DNA of 32,079 nt from Lysobacterales bacterium (GTDB lineage Bacteria > Pseudomonadota > Gammaproteobacteria > Xanthomonadales > Xanthomonadaceae): contig JAATFG010000011.1 of the NCBI GenBank assembly GCA_015655355.1, positions 1 through 32,079 of the forward strand, in the 5' to 3' direction. A program made the translations under genes and the position numbers. The notes beneath the pieces were generated by a model. That model did no database searches and was not told the origin of the DNA. It saw only the letters and a list, made by a program, of their open reading frames with translations. Of the stretch, positions 1 through 22,974 are shown piece after piece (positions within the stretch are counted from its first letter, which is position 1; each line of letters starts with the position of its first letter).

Positions 1-2949
1 ACGAAATCCCTCGCAGGCATGAGTATCACCAAGCTCAACGCTGCGCCAACGGATACGCAAGCGCATTTGCGCGTGACCTGTGCGCTGCAGGCGAGGGAAG
101 ATGGGTATGTTGTGGGGATCCCGGTTGCGTTGTACTCAACCGGGATAACGCAGACTCACCCATCTATTGGAATCGCAAATTATTTTGACAGCGCCTATAA
201 GCCAGATCCGATTGGGGATGGGACTCTGCTGGCCCAGATCATTGCGGGGAAACCGCTGGATGCATGGAATGGTGGGGTTGCACCAGGTAGCGATCTGACC
301 GATATCAGGATCATTCCTGAAAAACCAACGGCGGGTAATCCATTTGGCCAAGTGACAATGGAGGCAGGTTTGAGTTGGTTGGAGAACGAGCTTAAATTTT
401 TGACCGGGGATCCGATTGCGCGCATCAGTGCATTTGGTTGGGATGGTGGTTTTGCCGGGCAGGACGCCACAATGGATCGATTAGCTGCAGACTTCAATGC
501 TTACATGGAGGGCCATGGGTCGAAATATCCCGATAGCGAGGGCATGGTGGTGTTTGCTGCTGGCGATGGTGGAGATGCTGATCCGACGCAGATGGCGGGA
601 TTGCCTAGCGGCAGAGACCAGATGTATCGACAGTGGATTACCGTGGCTGCCGTGGATACTGCGCATCCAGATACGCTTGCCAGTTATTCCAATGCGTGTG
701 GTGTTGCCAAGGATTATTGTTTGGTGGCGCCGGGAGATGTGGTAGTCACCGGCGCCGATTCCACTTCGGATCACGTGACTTACGAAGAAATCCACAGCAC
801 GCAAGCAGCGATGGCACAAGTGGCTGGCGCGGCGAGCGTATTGTTCGCAGAGTATCCGTTTCTTTCTGCTGCCAATGTGACTCAAATTTTGCTTGGAACC
901 ACGACCGATTTGGGCAAGCCGGGCGTTGATGCGGTTTTCGGACAAGGCTTGTTGAACGAAGCCAAGGCGGTACACGGCCCAGGTCGTCTTGATTACGATA
1001 TGGCCATCAATTTGGGTGGGTGCTCCAATGGGTGCGTGATTTCGCAGTTGTCTTCCGACCGCGGGACCTTGGAATTCAGCAATGACATGAGCGGAACCGG
1101 AGGTCTCTCGATTACTGACGTTCGCCCAGGCCCTGATTTTGATGATGGGTACAAACTGATTCTTTCAGGGAAGAATACTTATACGGGCACGACCACAATG
1201 ACAGGTGGGACGCTGACCGTTACAGGCTCTCTTGATTCGCCGGTTGTGCTCAACGCAGGTTTGTTCGATCTGGATAGTGGTCAACTAAATGCTGGAGTTA
1301 CCATCAGCGACAGCTATGTAGCCAACGGCTACGGTCCGGATTTCATTTCTGAAAATGGAAAGGTGATTGGTGATTTCTCTAGCGCTTGCCTGACGTCCAT
1401 CTGCCGCGTGACGTTGACCAATACCATCATTACCGGCAATGTCAGCAATGCGGGCATGGGCACAGTTAAAGCAACCGATTCGACCATCAATGGCAACGTA
1501 ACCGCGACCGATACCAGTGTGCTCTCGACGCGTGGCAACGTCACGATCAACGGCGATCTTTCGTTGGGTGCACAGACAGTGCTCGATTTCCAAGCGGGCA
1601 ATCCGGCCCTGCAGATTACCGGGATCACAACAATCGACACGGGTGCATCGTTGGGTTATGCAGGTACGGTCGATGGCTATGTGACTTCCAGCCATGAAGT
1701 CGTGTTGCAGGCCGGTGGCGGCGTGAGCGGCGCATTTGCAAGCATCGTTCAACCCGATGCCAGTGGAAGTTACGTCAATTCGACAGTTTTCACCAATGCC
1801 AGCATTGGCCAGGACGCAAACAGCGTATGGGTCGATTTCGCACGCGATGATGTTGCCGCCACTGCCGCGAAGTTCGATGGCATCAAGCCGGCCTCGCTCG
1901 CTTCCGCGCAACGGGTCGAAAAAACCTTCGAGAATATCGACGCGCAATTGAACAATGGTGGCAACGCCATCGGCAGCGGTTTCATCGCCGACGCAGGCCA
2001 CATCGAATCTGCTGCGAATGAAGCCATCGCCAAGTCCTCGCTGCAAAGCCTCTCCGGCGAACTGCACGCGCGCGCTGACGCGCAGACCTTCGACGGCATC
2101 GACGCCAACCGTCGCGCGCTATCGATGCGCTTCGGCGCGTTAGCTGCGCAGCCGACCACGTTGGGCGCGTGGTCGCGGCAACTCGGCGATGCCGGCGAGG
2201 GCAGCACGAACAACGCCACCTTCGCTGCCAACGGCTGGATGATGGGCACGGATGCGGCGCTGGGCTTCGACCGATTCGCCGGCATCGCTTTCGGCGAAAC
2301 CGGCAGCAACGGCTACATGGACGGCGGACGCGACAATGCGCGCCAGCGGCAGACGCAGATGCAGTTCTACACCGGCGCGGTGCGCGGCAATGCGTATGCG
2401 TTGGGCCAGCTCGGCGCCGGCCAGTACCAGCGGCAGATGCGCCGCGGCCTACAACTTGGCGACGTCAACCAGTACGTCGGCAGCGATTACGCCGGCCGCT
2501 TCTTCGATGCGAACCTCGAAACTGGCTACCGCCTCGGCGCCGTCACTCCGTACGCGGGCGTTGATTACCAGCGCCTGCAGCGAGACGGCTTCGACGAGGC
2601 CGGCGGCGACGGTTTCGGTCTGAAGGCCGATGCCAGCTTGGCGCAACGCACGCAGGCGTTCGTGGGCGTGCGCGCGCAACGCGCGTTCGGGCGTATCGCG
2701 TTGCATGGTTTCGTCGAATGGCAGCAGGCGCTAGACCAGAGCGGCATGTACATTGACGCCAGCTTCGTCGGCGCCGATGCGTGGTCGCCGCTGTATGGTG
2801 ATGGCTTCGACAAGTCGGTGGGCCTGTTCGGCGCCAGCTTCGATGCGGCCTTATCGCGGTGCGCTTCGCTGAGCTTCGGCTACGACCGGCGCTTCGCTTC
2901 GTCCTTCGACGATCATCAGTGGATGACGAAGCTGCGTTACGGGTTCTGA
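1..2949 (+). CDS. Autotransporter with degenerate subtilisin-like (S8) passenger, 5' truncated
   Basis: The frame is open to the left edge, so the signal peptide and true start lie outside; the first ATG inside is at 19. Numbering from that Met, residues 28-315 follow the S8 subtilase scaffold (VALYSTGI, DGTLLAQIIAG, VVFAAGDGG, STQAAMAQVAGAA). All catalytic positions are changed: Asp to S40, His to D67, oxyanion Asn to D183, Ser to Q262. Residues about 379-400 (LSGKNTYTGTTTMTGGTL) match the autotransporter-associated beta-strand repeat. Residues about 673-976 are a C-terminal autotransporter barrel ending in Phe, as outer-membrane barrels do. The family normally exports a serine protease to the cell surface; this copy is predicted to be exported but not proteolytic. 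The passenger half is visibly AT-richer than the barrel half. Fold and barrel are confident; the role of the passenger is unknown. Confidence 0.88.
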   Translation, partial: TKSLAGMSITKLNAAPTDTQAHLRVTCALQAREDGYVVGIPVALYSTGITQTHPSIGIANYFDSAYKPDPIGDGTLLAQIIAGKPLDAWNGGVAPGSDLTDIRIIPEKPTAGNPFGQVTMEAGLSWLENELKFLTGDPIARISAFGWDGGFAGQDATMDRLAADFNAYMEGHGSKYPDSEGMVVFAAGDGGDADPTQMAGLPSGRDQMYRQWITVAAVDTAHPDTLASYSNACGVAKDYCLVAPGDVVVTGADSTSDHVTYEEIHSTQAAMAQVAGAASVLFAEYPFLSAANVTQILLGTTTDLGKPGVDAVFGQGLLNEAKAVHGPGRLDYDMAINLGGCSNGCVISQLSSDRGTLEFSNDMSGTGGLSITDVRPGPDFDDGYKLILSGKNTYTGTTTMTGGTLTVTGSLDSPVVLNAGLFDLDSGQLNAGVTISDSYVANGYGPDFISENGKVIGDFSSACLTSICRVTLTNTIITGNVSNAGMGTVKATDSTINGNVTATDTSVLSTRGNVTINGDLSLGAQTVLDFQAGNPALQITGITTIDTGASLGYAGTVDGYVTSSHEVVLQAGGGVSGAFASIVQPDASGSYVNSTVFTNASIGQDANSVWVDFARDDVAATAAKFDGIKPASLASAQRVEKTFENIDAQLNNGGNAIGSGFIADAGHIESAANEAIAKSSLQSLSGELHARADAQTFDGIDANRRALSMRFGALAAQPTTLGAWSRQLGDAGEGSTNNATFAANGWMMGTDAALGFDRFAGIAFGETGSNGYMDGGRDNARQRQTQMQFYTGAVRGNAYALGQLGAGQYQRQMRRGLQLGDVNQYVGSDYAGRFFDANLETGYRLGAVTPYAGVDYQRLQRDGFDEAGGDGFGLKADASLAQRTQAFVGVRAQRAFGRIALHGFVEWQQALDQSGMYIDASFVGADAWSPLYGDGFDKSVGLFGASFDAALSRCASLSFGYDRRFASSFDDHQWMTKLRYGF

Positions 2950-3004: not shown

Positions 3005-3862
3005 TTAGGCCGCCACTTTCAGCCATTCCAGCCGTGTCGAGGCGCCTTGCTCGCCGAGCAGTTTCCGCAACACCGGCAGCACCGGTGCGATGTCGGCATC
3101 GAACTGCCACGGCGGATTGAGCAGCAGCATGCCGCTGCCGTTGAGGCGCAATGGCGAATCGTCGGCACGCACCAGCAATTCGATGTCGAGCACGGACTTG
3201 GCCGGCAGCTTGAGGATTTCGCGCAGGAACGAATGCAGGCTGCGGCGCTGCTTGACCGGATACCACACCGCGTACGTCGCGTTCGGCCAGCGTTCGAGGC
3301 CTTCGCGCAGCGCGGCGATGACGCGTGGATATTCGGCGTCCTGCGCCTCGTAGGGCGGATCGATCAGGACCAGGCCGCGCGCTAATCTGGTCGCGCCATG
3401 CTTCGGCGGCAGCAAGGCCTTGATCGTGCCGTAGCCGTCGCGCGCATGCACTGCGACGTTTCCCGCATGCGCGAACAGCGCCTTCAGCGCCGCGGCTTCT
3501 TCCGGCTGCAATTCGCAGGCGGCGAGGTAGTCGTGTTCGCGCAACGCCTGCGCGACCAGCAGCGGCGAACCCGGATACACCTCGAAGCGGCCATCGGGAT
3601 TGAACGCGGCCACCGCGTCGAGATAGCGCCGGATGCCTTGCGGCAGGCCGGTTTGCACGGCCAGTTTGCCGATGCCGTCGCGCGCTTCGCCGGTCTTCGC
3701 GCTTTCCTCGGCGGTCAGTTGGTAGCGCCCGCGCCCGGCGTGGGTGTCGAGCACGAAGAACGGCGATTGCTTGCGCTTGAGCGCATCCAGCAGGGCGAGC
3801 AGCACGAGGTGCTTGAGCACGTCGGCGTGGTTGCCGGCGTGGAAGGCGTGGCGGTAATTCAT
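3005..3862 (-). CDS. rlmJ: 23S rRNA (adenine(2030)-N6)-methyltransferase RlmJ
   Basis: RlmJ methylates A2030 of 23S rRNA using S-adenosylmethionine. The 285-residue product starts MNYRHAFHAGNHADVLKH, the family's N-terminal signature. It has the SAM-binding segment VLDTHAGRGRY at about residues 37-47 and the N6-adenine methyltransferase motif DPPY at 168-171. The start at 3862 is preferred over an in-frame ATG four codons upstream. It places the family's conserved N-terminus first and sits 7 nt from a TATGCT -10-like element. Length matches the family (about 280). It is divergent from creB, sharing a 46-bp intergenic region. Confidence 0.93.
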   Translation of the reverse strand: MNYRHAFHAGNHADVLKHLVLLALLDALKRKQSPFFVLDTHAGRGRYQLTAEESAKTGEARDGIGKLAVQTGLPQGIRRYLDAVAAFNPDGRFEVYPGSPLLVAQALREHDYLAACELQPEEAAALKALFAHAGNVAVHARDGYGTIKALLPPKHGATRLARGLVLIDPPYEAQDAEYPRVIAALREGLERWPNATYAVWYPVKQRRSLHSFLREILKLPAKSVLDIELLVRADDSPLRLNGSGMLLLNPPWQFDADIAPVLPVLRKLLGEQGASTRLEWLKVAA

Positions 3863-3908
3863 GGCGCGCAGCATAGCGGCGAACGAAGGGCGCGACTATG
3901 CTGGCGCC
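3863..3908. promoter_or_regulatory. Divergent rlmJ/creB promoter with mirrored -10 elements
   Basis: This 46-bp gap is nearly symmetric: GGCGCGCAGCATAG at 3863-3876 is mirrored, with one base inserted, by CTATGCTGGCGCC at 3896-3908. Each arm puts TATGCT 6 nt (creB) or 7 nt (rlmJ) before an ATG. A transcript would therefore start at or next to the first codon, giving leaderless mRNAs. No convincing -35 is seen for either gene and there is no Shine-Dalgarno sequence. This is inference from spacing. Confidence 0.5.
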
Positions 3909-4580
3909 ATGCCGACGACAATCCTGATCGCCGAAGACGAAACCGCCATTGCCGATGCCGTGCTCTACGCGCTGCGCAGCGAGGGCATGGAGGCGCGGCA
4001 TTGCCTGCTCGGACGCGAGGCGCTGGCGGTCGTGCGCGGCGGCGGCATCGACGTGGTGGTGCTGGACGTCGGCTTGCCCGACCTCAATGGCTTCGAGGTG
4101 TGCCGGCAGATCAGGGCCTTCAGCGAGGTGCCGGTGATCTTCCTCACCGCGCGCAACGAGGAGGTCGACCGCGTGCTCGGCCTCGAACTCGGCGCCGACG
4201 ACTACGTCGCCAAGCCCTTCTCGCCGCGCGAACTGGTTGCCCGGGTACGGGCGCGGCTGCGTCGCAGTGCGGCGCCCGACGATTTCGTCGAACGCGGGGA
4301 TTTCGGCATCGATCGCGCAGGACATCGGATCCGCTGGCGAGGCAAGCCCCTGGAGTTGACCCGCTACGAATACGCCGTGCTCGATGCCTTGCTGCAGCGG
4401 CCCGGCGCGATCTTCAGCCGCGCGCAACTGATGGACCGCGGCTGGGACAGCCACGCGGAAAGCGCCGACCGCACCATCGACACCCACGTCAAGACGCTGC
4501 GCGCGAAACTGCGCGCGGCCGGCGCCGACCCGGAGCGCATCCGCACCCATCGCGGCCTCGGCTATTCGCTGGAGCCCTGA
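3909..4580 (+). CDS. creB: Two-component response regulator CreB (OmpR family)
   Basis: This 223-residue cytoplasmic regulator has a receiver domain at about 1-115 with acidic pocket E9/D10, phosphoacceptor D53 (VVVLDVGLPD) and conserved K102 (VAKPF). A winged-helix DNA-binding domain fills about 125-223 (LTRYEYAVLDALLQRPG, RTIDTHVKTLRAKL, HRGLGYSLEP). Length and order match CreB. The next gene, creC, starts 1 nt after the stop, followed by creD, which fixes the assignment. CreBC responds to metabolic and envelope signals in enterics and Stenotrophomonas. The start at 3909 gives the normal N-terminus MPTTILIAEDE; an upstream in-frame ATG at 3861 would overlap the rlmJ start. Confidence 0.92.
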   Translation: MPTTILIAEDETAIADAVLYALRSEGMEARHCLLGREALAVVRGGGIDVVVLDVGLPDLNGFEVCRQIRAFSEVPVIFLTARNEEVDRVLGLELGADDYVAKPFSPRELVARVRARLRRSAAPDDFVERGDFGIDRAGHRIRWRGKPLELTRYEYAVLDALLQRPGAIFSRAQLMDRGWDSHAESADRTIDTHVKTLRAKLRAAGADPERIRTHRGLGYSLEP

Positions 4581-4581
4581 C

Positions 4582-6018
4582 GTGCGCCTCGGCTTGCGCC
4601 TGATCCTCGGGTTTTTCCTGATCGTCGGCCTCGCCGCGTTCTTCGTGATGCGCGTGTTCGTGGGTGAAGTGAAGCCGGGCGTGCGCCAGTCGATCGAATC
4701 CACCCTGGTCGACAGCGCCAACCTGCTCGCCGCGCTGGCGGCCGACGATCTGCGCAGCGGGCGCATCGCCGACGGGCGTTTTGCCGCGCAGGTGGCGCGC
4801 GCGCAGCAGCGCGATCCGAACGCGCACATCTGGCAATTCGCCAAGCACCGCATCGACTTGCGGGTGACGGTGACGGACGCGCGCGGCATCGTCGTCTATG
4901 CCTCCGACGGGCGCGACCTGGGCCGCGACGATTCGCGCTGGAACGACGTGTTGCGCACCTTGCAAGGGCAATACGGCGCGCGTTCCAGCCCGGTGATTGC
5001 CGGCGACAGTTCGGGCAACGACACGGTGATGCACGTTTCCGCGCCGATCCGCGACGACGACGGGAAATTGATCGGCGTGTTGAGCGTGGCGCAGCCGAAC
5101 GCCGCGTATGCGCCTTTCATCGCCGCCAGCCAGAACGCCATCATGTTGCGCGGCGTGTGGCTGGTCGGCCTGTCGGCGCTGATCGGCTTGCTGGTCACGG
5201 TGTGGCTGATGCGCCGGATCAACCGCCTGACCCGCTACGCGCGCGCGGTCAGCGCCGGCGAGCCGGCTCCGCCGCCGCCGCAGGGCAAGGACCAGATCGG
5301 CACGCTCGGCCGCGCGCTGCAAGCGATGCGCAGCAAGCTCGAAGGCAAGGCCTATGTCGAGCACTACGTGCAGTCGCTGACCCACGAGATGAAAAGCCCG
5401 CTGGCGGCGATCCGCGGCGCGACCGAATTGTTGCAAGGGCCGATGCCCGAAGCAGACCACGCGCGCTTCCTGCGCAACATCGCGGCGCAGGAACAGCGCC
5501 TGACCGCGATGATCGACAAGCTGCTGGCGCTGGCCGAAGTCGAGCAGCATGGTTGGCTGCAGGCGCGCGAGCGCATCGACGTGGGCGAACTGCTCGACGC
5601 CGTGGTCGAAGCCGCGGTGGACAAGGCGTCGCTGCGCAACCTGCGCATCGTCGGCAACGCCGATGGCACGTTGCAGGTGCAGGGCGACGCGTTCCTGCTG
5701 CGGCAGGCATTGTCGAACCTGCTCGACAATGCGATCGCGTTCGCGCCACCCAACAGTGTGATCGAGATACGCGTGCAGCGCGAAGGTGGCGAGGTCGCGA
5801 TCCGCGTGCGCGACCATGGCCCCGGCATGCCGGATTTCGCCCTCGGCAAGGTGTTCGAGCGCTTCTATTCGCTGGCCCGGCCCGACACCGGCCAGCGCAG
5901 TTCCGGCCTCGGCCTGCCGTTCGTGCGCGAGGTCGCGCGCCTGCATGGCGGCCGCGTCGCGCTGGGCAACCACGCCGATGGCGGTGCCGAGGCCCTGCTG
6001 CAACTGCCGGCGGCCTGA
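4582..6018 (+). CDS. creC: Sensor histidine kinase CreC
   Basis: This is the partner kinase of CreB, 478 residues, starting at GTG 1 nt after creB. A membrane segment at about 7-24 is followed by a periplasmic sensor region of about 165 residues and a second membrane segment at about 190-210. A HAMP-like linker follows. The H-box is LTHEMKSPLAAIRG with phosphoacceptor H268, the N-box is LSNLLDNAIAFAPP with N383, and the G-boxes are DHGPGMP and SSGLGLPFV. E. coli CreC has similar size and order. It would autophosphorylate and pass phosphate to CreB D53. Assignment is strong from synteny plus sequence. Confidence 0.92.
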   Translation: MRLGLRLILGFFLIVGLAAFFVMRVFVGEVKPGVRQSIESTLVDSANLLAALAADDLRSGRIADGRFAAQVARAQQRDPNAHIWQFAKHRIDLRVTVTDARGIVVYASDGRDLGRDDSRWNDVLRTLQGQYGARSSPVIAGDSSGNDTVMHVSAPIRDDDGKLIGVLSVAQPNAAYAPFIAASQNAIMLRGVWLVGLSALIGLLVTVWLMRRINRLTRYARAVSAGEPAPPPPQGKDQIGTLGRALQAMRSKLEGKAYVEHYVQSLTHEMKSPLAAIRGATELLQGPMPEADHARFLRNIAAQEQRLTAMIDKLLALAEVEQHGWLQARERIDVGELLDAVVEAAVDKASLRNLRIVGNADGTLQVQGDAFLLRQALSNLLDNAIAFAPPNSVIEIRVQREGGEVAIRVRDHGPGMPDFALGKVFERFYSLARPDTGQRSSGLGLPFVREVARLHGGRVALGNHADGGAEALLQLPAA

Positions 6019-6019
6019 C

Positions 6020-6064
6020 TTCACCCTGGCCCCACATTGGCCACGCATTGGCCACGCATTGCGC
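6020..6064 (+). promoter_or_regulatory. Candidate CreB operator upstream of creD (11-bp repeats)
   Basis: The creC-creD gap holds TTCAC-N6-CCCAC at 6020-6035, a near match to the enteric cre tag TTCAC-N6-TTCAC. It is followed by 2.5 copies of the 11-bp unit CATTGGCCACG (6035-6064). Eleven-bp direct repeats are the usual binding format for OmpR-family regulators. The block ends 47 nt before the creD ATG. The repeats are seen directly; CreB binding is inferred. Confidence 0.45.
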
Positions 6065-6111
6065 CCATGCCCGCGGCGCAGGCTGCACGCACCTTCCAAC
6101 GGAGCGTGCCC

Positions 6112-7431
6112 ATGAAGTCCACCCGCTTGTTGTCGCGTTTCGCCGTCATCGGCGGCCTGATGCTGTTGCTGCTGGTGCCCTTGTCGATGATCAGCGGCCT
6201 GATCCACGAGCGCGAGGCGTATCGCGCCGAAGCGGTGCAACGGGTGACGCAGAACGTCGCCGGCGCGCAGCGCTTCGTCGGCCCGCTGCGGGTGGTGCCG
6301 TGGGTCGATACGCAAACCGTCAGCTACACCGACAACGATGGCGTGCCGCGCAGTCGGGTCGAACGCAGGAACGGCTACACCTTGCAGACCCCGGCGACGC
6401 TTGACGTCGTCGGCGCGCTCGAACCGCGCAAACTCCGTTCCGGCCTGTTCGAGGTGGCCGTGTACGAATGGCGCGCGACGTTGCAGGCGAGCTTCGTCGA
6501 CCGCCTGCCGGCGGCGGCCGAGGGCGTGCAGCGCGCATACGGCAAGGCGTACCTCGCGTTCGGCATCTCCGACGTGCGTGGCCTGGTCGGCACGCCGACG
6601 CTGGCGCTCGACGGCCATGCGCTGCCGCTGCAGGCCGGCACGGGCGAAGTGAAAAACCTCGACGGCCTGAGCGCCGCGTTGCCCGAGAGCAAGGGCGATG
6701 GCACGGTGCACGCGCTGCGGATGCAGTTCGTGCTGAAGGGCACGCAGGCGCTGGCGATCGCGCCGGTCGCCGACGCCAACCACATCGCGCTGGATTCGCC
6801 GTGGCCGAGCCCGCAATTCGACGGCGGGCCGCGCAGCGAAGTCGGCGCCGATGGCTTCCGCGCCACATGGGACGTGCCGGCGCTGAGCAGCAACCTGCAG
6901 GCGCGCTTGCAGCAGGGCGATTTCGACACGGGCGACGTCGGCGTGAAACTGATCGAGCGCATCGACGTCTACACGCTGGCCGATCGCGCCAGCAAGTACG
7001 GCATCCTGTTCGTCGCGCTGACCTTCGTCGGCTTCGTCCTGTTCGAGCTGCTCAAGCGCCTGCCGATCCATCCGCTGCAATACCTGTTGGTCGGGTTCGC
7101 GCTGGCGATCTTCTTCCTGCTGCTGCTCAGCCTGTCCGAGCGCATCGCGTTCTGGCAGGCGTACCTGGTTTCGGCGGCGGCGTGCATCGGCCTGCAGTTC
7201 GCGTACCTGTCCGGCGTACTGAAAAGCCGGGCGCGTGCGACCGGTTTCGCGGCGATGCTCGCCGCGCTGTATGGCGTGCTCTACGGCTTGCTGGTTTCGG
7301 AGGACAACGCGCTGTTGATGGGCTCGTTGCTGCTGTTCGGCATCCTCGCCGCGATCATGCTGGCCACGCGCAAGCTCGACTGGTACGAACTGGGCATTGC
7401 AAGTCGCGGAGACGGCCATGTTGAATCCTAG
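6112..7431 (+). CDS. creD: Inner membrane protein CreD
   Basis: CreD (formerly Cet) is the main CreBC-regulated target and affects envelope integrity and, in Stenotrophomonas and relatives, beta-lactam phenotypes. The 439-residue product has one N-terminal membrane segment (about 8-30). A long extracytoplasmic domain follows, with the family's VVPWVDTQTVSY and FDGGPRSEVGADGFRATW segments. A cluster of about five or six membrane helices sits near the C-terminus (about 295-425). The start at 6112 is preceded by GGAG at 6101-6104. An in-frame upstream ATG at 6037 would run through the repeats and add a non-hydrophobic tail. The next gene starts inside its last codons. Confidence 0.9.
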   Translation: MKSTRLLSRFAVIGGLMLLLLVPLSMISGLIHEREAYRAEAVQRVTQNVAGAQRFVGPLRVVPWVDTQTVSYTDNDGVPRSRVERRNGYTLQTPATLDVVGALEPRKLRSGLFEVAVYEWRATLQASFVDRLPAAAEGVQRAYGKAYLAFGISDVRGLVGTPTLALDGHALPLQAGTGEVKNLDGLSAALPESKGDGTVHALRMQFVLKGTQALAIAPVADANHIALDSPWPSPQFDGGPRSEVGADGFRATWDVPALSSNLQARLQQGDFDTGDVGVKLIERIDVYTLADRASKYGILFVALTFVGFVLFELLKRLPIHPLQYLLVGFALAIFFLLLLSLSERIAFWQAYLVSAAACIGLQFAYLSGVLKSRARATGFAAMLAALYGVLYGLLVSEDNALLMGSLLLFGILAAIMLATRKLDWYELGIASRGDGHVES

Positions 7432-22374: not shown

Positions 22375-22451
22375 CGGGGTATAGCGCAGTCTGGTAGCGC
22401 ATCTGCTTTGGGAGCAGAGGGTCGGGGGTTCGAATCCCTCTACCCCGACCA
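22375..22451 (+). tRNA. tRNA-Pro (anticodon TGG)
   Basis: Acceptor arms CGGGGTA/TACCCCG, anticodon loop TTTGGGA with TGG at positions 34-36, T-loop GGTTCGAATCC and encoded CCA. The 77-nt cloverleaf is complete. It is the first of four tRNA genes and is probably co-transcribed with tRNA-Arg 37 nt downstream. Confidence 0.96.
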
Positions 22452-22488
22452 CTTGGTTCAATTCCGCCAACCCGTGCCGGCGGTACAT

Positions 22489-22565
22489 GCGCCCATAGCT
22501 CAACCGGATAGAGCACCGGCCTTCTAAGCCGGCGGTTGCTGGTTCGAGTCCAGCTGGGCGCACCA
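22489..22565 (+). tRNA. tRNA-Arg (anticodon TCT)
   Basis: Acceptor arms GCGCCCA/TGGGCGC, anticodon stem CCGGC/GCCGG with loop CTTCTAA giving TCT, T-loop GGTTCGAGTCC and encoded CCA; 77 nt. Confidence 0.96.
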
Positions 22566-22592
22566 ACTATCGAACCTCATTGTCAACGAATT

Positions 22593-22607
22593 CCGCGCGC
22601 GGTTTTT
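22593..22607 (+). terminator. Weak terminator-like palindrome after tRNA-Arg
   Basis: The 10-bp palindrome CCGCGCGCGG is followed directly by TTTTT, 28 nt after the tRNA. The loop must come from the stem itself, so strength is doubtful. Confidence 0.3.
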
Positions 22608-22676
22608 CTCTTTACGATAGAGAATCGACGCAATCACTGCCATCGGCAGGATGCGTGCATTGCGCACGGAAAGGTG

Positions 22677-22705
22677 TGGACGCGGCACCGCAAGACCCGT
22701 AAAAT
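22677..22705 (+). promoter_or_regulatory. Candidate promoter for tRNA-His
   Basis: TGGACG (22677-22682), a 17-nt spacer and TAAAAT (22700-22705) lie 42 nt before the tRNA. It is consistent with separate transcription from tRNA-Pro/Arg. Confidence 0.5.
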
Positions 22706-22747
22706 GCGCAGCCCGCACCGGACAGGCGCGGGTTGCAGGTTCCCCGT

Positions 22748-22825
<78 letters not shown>

Positions 22826-22861
22826 TTCCCGCGGAATTCCACGGGAAATCCCGCAAAAAGT

Positions 22862-22890
22862 TTGCAAGATGTTTTTGCAGGCGCTACAAT
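22862..22890 (+). promoter_or_regulatory. Promoter for tRNA-Lys
   Basis: TTGCAA (22862-22867), a 17-nt spacer and TACAAT (22885-22890) place transcription start 1-2 nt before the mature tRNA at 22899. Confidence 0.65.
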
Positions 22891-22898
22891 TCATACAC

Positions 22899-22974
22899 GG
22901 GCCGTTAGCTCAGTTGGTAGAGCAGTTGACTCTTAATCAATAGGTCCACAGTTCGAATCTGTGACGGCCCACCA
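22899..22974 (+). tRNA. tRNA-Lys (anticodon CTT)
   Basis: Acceptor arms GGGCCGT/ACGGCCC, anticodon stem GTTGA/TCAAT with loop CTCTTAA giving CTT, T-loop AGTTCGAATCT and encoded CCA; 76 nt. An integrase remnant ends 15 nt past its 3' end, so this gene is the likely integration target. Confidence 0.96.

Follow-up and report, generated by a model that had tools for sequence, protein, structure and literature searches.

What is a subtilase autotransporter for when every residue of its active centre has been replaced, and is such a gene kept by evolution or merely broken? The question is raised by the first gene in the stretch of DNA analysed here (the window; 32,079 nucleotides), which is the whole of contig C87 in a draft genome of 2.65 Mb (138 contigs, 94.2% complete and 7.5% contaminated). 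The gene lies at positions 1..2949 of the forward strand, where 982 open codons are visible. Because it runs past the 5′ end of the contig, its start and roughly 80 N-terminal residues are unseen, the latter figure being estimated from the related gene L050, in which the first Met is residue 26 and residue 108 matches residue 4 of the window protein. A sequence-only reading had proposed selection for a surface protein with a non-proteolytic role, encoded in a frame intact through a complete barrel. The comparisons described below support that interpretation, with the intact frame applying to the visible part of the gene.

Domains and catalytic positions

The subtilase scaffold that had been claimed for the passenger is recovered by Pfam, which places Peptidase_S8 (PF00082) at residues 42-316 (124..948, forward strand; E 2.7e-19, with 70 bits against a cut-off of 21.8). 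The C-terminal β-barrel of a type Va autotransporter is likewise present (PF03797, 2170..2886, forward strand, residues 724-962; E 1.7e-31), and in the stalk there is a weak match on the same strand to the PATR repeat (PF12951, 1156..1221), which at 20.5 bits falls below the curated cut-off of 27. EprS, the best NCBIfam model, reaches only 109 bits where its cut-off is 1700. Among solved structures the best sequence match is 8e7f, entitled 'Extracellular serine protease', which we take to be the Ssp of PMC9977779.

All four catalytic positions, which we take to be D32/H64/N155/S221 in the numbering of subtilisin Carlsberg, were located with MAFFT, which aligned 58 rows (57 different) that included the window gene. 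The catalytic Asp is Ser at residue 46 (136..138) and the catalytic His is Asp at residue 73 (217..219), in each case against the canonical residue in all 57 other rows. At residue 189 (565..567) the oxyanion Asn is Asp, and at residue 268 (802..804) the nucleophilic Ser is Gln; 55 rows have Asn and Ser at these two positions, the same replacements being found in L050 and in a second relative, L051. An independent phmmer comparison sets the same four window residues, all encoded on the forward strand, opposite the catalytic positions of subtilisin Carlsberg, so that the substitutions read earlier at these codons are confirmed by two methods. Nor does an intact triad lie elsewhere in the passenger, an outcome that would have undone the earlier reading: neither HGT nor GTS turned up when the whole visible protein was scanned for motifs, and DTG and DSG occur once each, at residues 546 and 425 respectively, both outside the S8 domain. 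Compared with an active S8 peptidase, the window protein thus has the subtilisin-like domain but neither the Asp/His/Ser triad (S46, D73 and Q268 instead) nor the oxyanion Asn (D189). It is almost certainly catalytically dead, as far as can be judged from its residues, and it serves as a caution that profile matches may label as peptidases proteins that are unable to cut.

Altered relatives

A family-level look at the genomes of the window gene, L050 and L051 (the trio), together with targeted searches and reading of residues, yielded 12 S8 autotransporters with a replaced nucleophile. These comprise the window gene and 11 others, spread over nine genomes (eight besides that of the window), six genera and two families, and the S8 fold with a replaced nucleophile, the mark of an S8 pseudoprotease, therefore recurs across species. 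In the order Asp/His/Asn/Ser the catalytic positions read SDDQ in the window gene; DHDQ in L050 and L051; DHDG in L138, L189_3, L186_1 and L229_13; DHDD in L181_9 and L188_2; DHDE in L187_4; SVDA in L180_8; and DE-G in L139, where the Asn column is gapped. Ser has given way to Q, G, D, E or A in every member and the oxyanion Asn to Asp in 11 of the 12, with Asp retained in ten and His in nine. Only L180_8 (genome G121) has lost all four residues as the window gene has, and L229_13 (G630) comes from another family of the order (f12).

The two best matches to the window gene among 395 family genomes are L050 (54% identical), from a 3080-base contig of the named isolate Luteimonas salinisoli (G387), and L051 (48%), from the single-contig genome G312. 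All three genes keep the subtilase scaffold and the barrel and lack the nucleophile and the oxyanion residue. Because relatives in other genomes share these two replacements, the window gene is no isolated recent mutant and an assembly error is unlikely, two possibilities that had been raised against the earlier reading; L050 and L051 have two of its four losses in common. Whether orthologues would show the full S/D/D/Q set had also been asked, and here the answer is divided, as both share the D and the Q but keep Asp and His. Given how widely Asp and His are retained among the 12, their loss in the window gene was probably a later step. It was most simply added in the window lineage, and among the closest trio it is specific to this gene. 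Each of the three genomes also encodes an S8 autotransporter whose four catalytic positions are intact; in the genome of the window this is a paralogue of 990 amino acids on contig C119.

The changes extend beyond the catalytic residues. The window gene, L050 and L051 agree in a new residue at each of six columns that do not vary among the active rows (55 in all, 54 of them different): D112G, G114P, N145F, N189D, G266S and S268Q. Residues 112-114 (334..342, forward strand) thus carry Gly and Pro in place of Asp and Gly, and N145F falls within the substrate-strand motif NNSWGG of the active rows, which is altered at residues 144-149 (430..447, forward strand). A conserved Cys pair, C233 and C240 (697..720, forward strand), is kept, being part of the 62 columns that the window gene retains out of 97 whose conservation among active rows is 95% or more; L050 and L051 retain 78 and 71, the window gene being the lowest. 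When 11 altered rows are set against 38 active ones, Asn189 is Asp in ten (the remaining one has a gap) and Pro272 is Ala in nine. Of 88 columns invariant in the active rows, 25 are kept by all 11 altered genes and four (189, 268, 290 and 291) by none.

An Asp at the oxyanion position raises the question of whether the cleft has been retooled for other chemistry, for instance through the side chains of Asp or Gln or by a mechanism like that of the sedolisins (S53). Sedolisins have Asp at the oxyanion position and Ser as nucleophile. The presence of this Asp in 11 of the 12 members agrees with such an arrangement, but none has the nucleophilic Ser, and the position it would occupy varies among five residues, which is unlike the behaviour of a catalytic residue. 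We consider a retooled enzyme very improbable. Identity of the window protein as a sedolisin was rejected, as D189 fits but Q268 stands in place of Ser and the GTS motif is missing.

The frequency of altered genes depends on how they are sought, and none of the following counts is an unbiased rate. All four residues were kept in 28 of 28 homologues in a first set (the own-genome paralogue and 27 others, five of them distant) and in 27 of 29 rows of a second, five of these 27 repeating genes of the first and the exceptions being L050 and L051. Judged by score, which misses divergent members, window-like genes occur in 3 of 395 family genomes, 1 of 52 in the genus of L. salinisoli and 1 of 12 in that of G312. 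At scores that tell window-like from active genes apart, only G000 stands out in searches of 398 order genomes and 369 class genomes, G387 and G312 being unmatched there. A broader profile applied to the same 12 genomes of G312's genus gave 22 matches, of which seven, in four genomes, were altered and 15 read DHNS. Residues were read for a minority of the lower-scoring family, order and targeted-search matches. Among 48 S8 open reading frames at 40 loci hand-picked from earlier match lists, eight of them chosen for two copies close together, 47 read DHNS and one was altered. A search for related loci confirmed no relative when made with the window gene alone and one locus, in L. salinisoli, when made with alignment A1. 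Viral contigs gave no match, and 38 plasmid records matched by similarity, all below 60% identity.

Histories of passenger and barrel

In a tree of S8 domains with the catalytic columns included, the window gene, L050 and L051 form one group on a starred branch (100/99); with the four catalytic columns removed, the three group with L229_13 (99/94, starred). The 12 passengers are set apart together by a branch with support of 87/85, which is not starred, and this split occurs in 88% of 200 bootstrap trees, again with the catalytic columns left out; earlier sets gave 79/86 for five altered genes and 92/72 for 11. As long branches are present, these trees make a common origin of the 12 passengers likely, without proving it.

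The barrels tell a different story, with starred branches of their tree forcing at least six label changes. The window barrel pairs with that of the active paralogue in its own genome (100/98), a pair joined by L186_1 (99/97); the L050 barrel pairs with active L114 of its own genome (99/84), that of L229_13 with its active neighbour L229_10 (100/100), and that of L051 clusters with those of six active genes from the same genus (99/92). The seven remaining altered barrels, from G312's genus and G120, form a single clade (100/96). All of these branches are starred. A similarity comparison places the approximate switch, from likeness to altered passengers to likeness to the own-genome active paralogue, at about position 2040 of the forward strand (residue ~680), and L050 and L051 also switch before the barrel, near window residue 680. 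Either the barrels would have been overwritten by the resident active gene or the passengers spliced onto it. Through this discordance, modular evolution in type V secretion can be put to the test.

A switch within one gene might also be produced by assembly or binning, either in a chimeric contig or by attaching a foreign passenger to a native barrel. The genome is a contaminated draft, the contig ends inside the gene and composition shifts along it, as such an artefact would have it. However, L050, L051 and L229_13 show the same discordance in separate genomes, the frame runs unbroken through the switch, and an altered gene in genome G335 occupies the same rlmJ-creBCD neighbourhood. An artefact is very unlikely. 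In the window this neighbourhood consists of rlmJ (3005..3874, reverse strand; PF04378, E 2e-74), which faces the window gene, followed by creB, creC and creD (3909..7431, forward strand; NCBIfam CreB, CreC and CreD above cut-off), and the G335 gene sits between rlmJ and creB.

The composition shift is considerable: GC3 is 0.53 in the passenger/S8 part (1-2040) versus 0.84 in the barrel (2170-2886), and the passenger value is also far below that of neighbouring genes. Ten other altered genes (L229_13 left out) have passenger GC3 of 0.75-0.91, none as low as the window gene. In view of these ten genes and of the G335 gene, which lies in the same neighbourhood on the other side of rlmJ, horizontal transfer of the passenger is probably not a full account of the low value.

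Low GC3 would also suit a spare, inactive S8 autotransporter that is simply drifting, its frame open by chance or through the need for a barrel that inserts harmlessly. The end branch of the window gene is, in addition, the longest of the trio (1.81, 1.96, 1.21 and 1.11 in four trees, versus 0.36-0.95 for L050 and L051), and together with the lowest motif retention this fits weakened constraint, which may indeed apply to the window copy. Against drift as the whole explanation, replacements at the same columns are shared in other genera, and ω = 1 on the window branch is rejected (likelihood ratio 21.2; five rows, 290 codons), an approximate test that, with synonymous sites saturated, gives direction only; on the same data a single ω for all branches is not rejected (0.02). 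Moreover, the window gene and L050 are separated by 19 gap runs with both frames open and no stop. When neutral mutation of the 680 passenger codons was simulated in 2000 runs, 7.9%, 1.1%, 0.05% and 0% remained free of stops at 0.05, 0.1, 0.2 and 0.3 changes per site, respectively. We regard a drifting duplicate as unlikely. The earlier statement that the gene is not decaying thus holds in so far as neutrality is rejected and losses are shared, and is tempered by the signs of weakened constraint. A comparison of dN/dS between passenger and barrel, proposed at the same time, could be realized in part: ω between the barrels of the window gene and its own-genome paralogue is 0.14, and saturation of dS deprives the pairwise passenger values of numerical meaning. 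Taken on its sequence, the window gene looks like one for a non-cutting surface protein that evolution has kept, rather than one freshly broken.

Possible role and genomic setting

Subtilisin-like autotransporters such as NalP, SphB1, EprS and Ssp (Group 15 in PMC9289746) likewise combine an S8 domain with a PF03797 barrel, and are called there among the least understood. They are described as proteases, whereas the window lineage has no nucleophile. NalP is reported to be lipidated, the lipid holding it for a time at the cell surface, where it releases other surface proteins (PMC5472700). The other altered members similarly carry a lipobox-like signal: a pattern defined for this analysis occurs in 10 of the 11 (it is absent from L229_13) and in five of six active rows tested. 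For S8 pseudoproteases, a precedent is given by CspA and CspC of Clostridioides difficile, made beside active CspB and with two catalytic residues replaced (PMC6636752), which are stated to act in signal sensing (PMC12880746), so that S8 pseudoproteases beside an active homologue can be sensors. CspA and CspC, however, are soluble spore proteins that lack a barrel, whereas the window lineage consists of outer-membrane autotransporters with up to four sites replaced. A survey of serine proteases in prokaryotes reports 42 putative inactive homologues among 966 proteins (five families, 91 genomes; 15 subtilisin-autotransporters) (PMC2605481). For the terms searched, no description of a subtilase autotransporter pseudoprotease was found in the open-licence literature.

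Our favoured reading, to which we attach a good probability, is that these genes form a lineage of surface pseudoproteases derived from S8 autotransporters, which would bind without cutting and perhaps work with an active paralogue. By analogy with the ten lipobox-bearing members, the window protein would carry a lipid, leave the cell by way of its own barrel and be exposed at the outer membrane. Having no nucleophile, it cannot cut itself free and would remain attached there unless released by a different protease. Its remodelled cleft might then hold a ligand, such as a peptide, and leave it uncleaved, the likeliest targets being the active S8 autotransporter of the same cell or its substrates, and the protein could serve as a substrate shield, a decoy or a regulator. 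A second, more tentative and unlikely proposal is that the old active centre became an acidic site for a ligand or metal, so that the lineage would consist of surface sensors or carriers on a protease framework, with the passenger as an exchangeable module; in addition to the oxyanion Asp of 11 members, the nucleophile position is now Gln, Asp or Glu in six of the 12 genes, five of which keep the His alongside. Dead but conserved clefts beside an active enzyme in several genomes would provide natural controls for what a passenger does without cutting.

The partnership envisaged in our favoured reading rests on shared barrels and on the tandem arrangement of altered and active genes in 4 of the 12, an arrangement that is only suggestive of a non-proteolytic function. 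In G312, G220 and G121 the altered gene is directly downstream of the active one at a locus marked by a thiolase gene (acetyl-CoA acyltransferase family), and in G630 it precedes the active one. In the fetched flanks, thiolase genes adjoin 21 of 22 and 25 of 27 active loci and 39 of the 40 hand-picked loci, 18 of which also have an acyl-CoA dehydrogenase gene in the flank. An active paralogue, which the earlier reading had suggested looking for just upstream of the window gene, does exist, but between thiolase and acyl-CoA dehydrogenase genes on a contig other than C87; the window gene is not adjacent to it, and the sequence immediately upstream is off the contig. In L. salinisoli a further tandem, of L050 with active L114, is probable across unjoined contigs: the L050 contig opens with a barrel-like C-terminal end and a stop, and that of L114 breaks off within a barrel, the final 30 residues of which match exactly those at the end of the L050 contig.

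Several smaller features of these loci were recorded. At the thiolase locus (L217, L218, L219 and L221) an active gene occupies the second autotransporter slot in G202, and altered genes fill it in G312, G121 and G220. In the short spacer between active and altered genes, GC-rich inverted repeats can be seen by eye at 3250-3440 of L180 and 3250-3430 of L181. At 5791-8367 of L080 (G312:C1:113000-132000) there are five 65-base direct repeats, presumably attC-like, between small open reading frames; this array resembles integron cassettes and ends about 0.9 kb before the L051 gene. In the window itself, a cluster of four tRNA genes lies in a GC dip at 22375-22971 on the forward strand.
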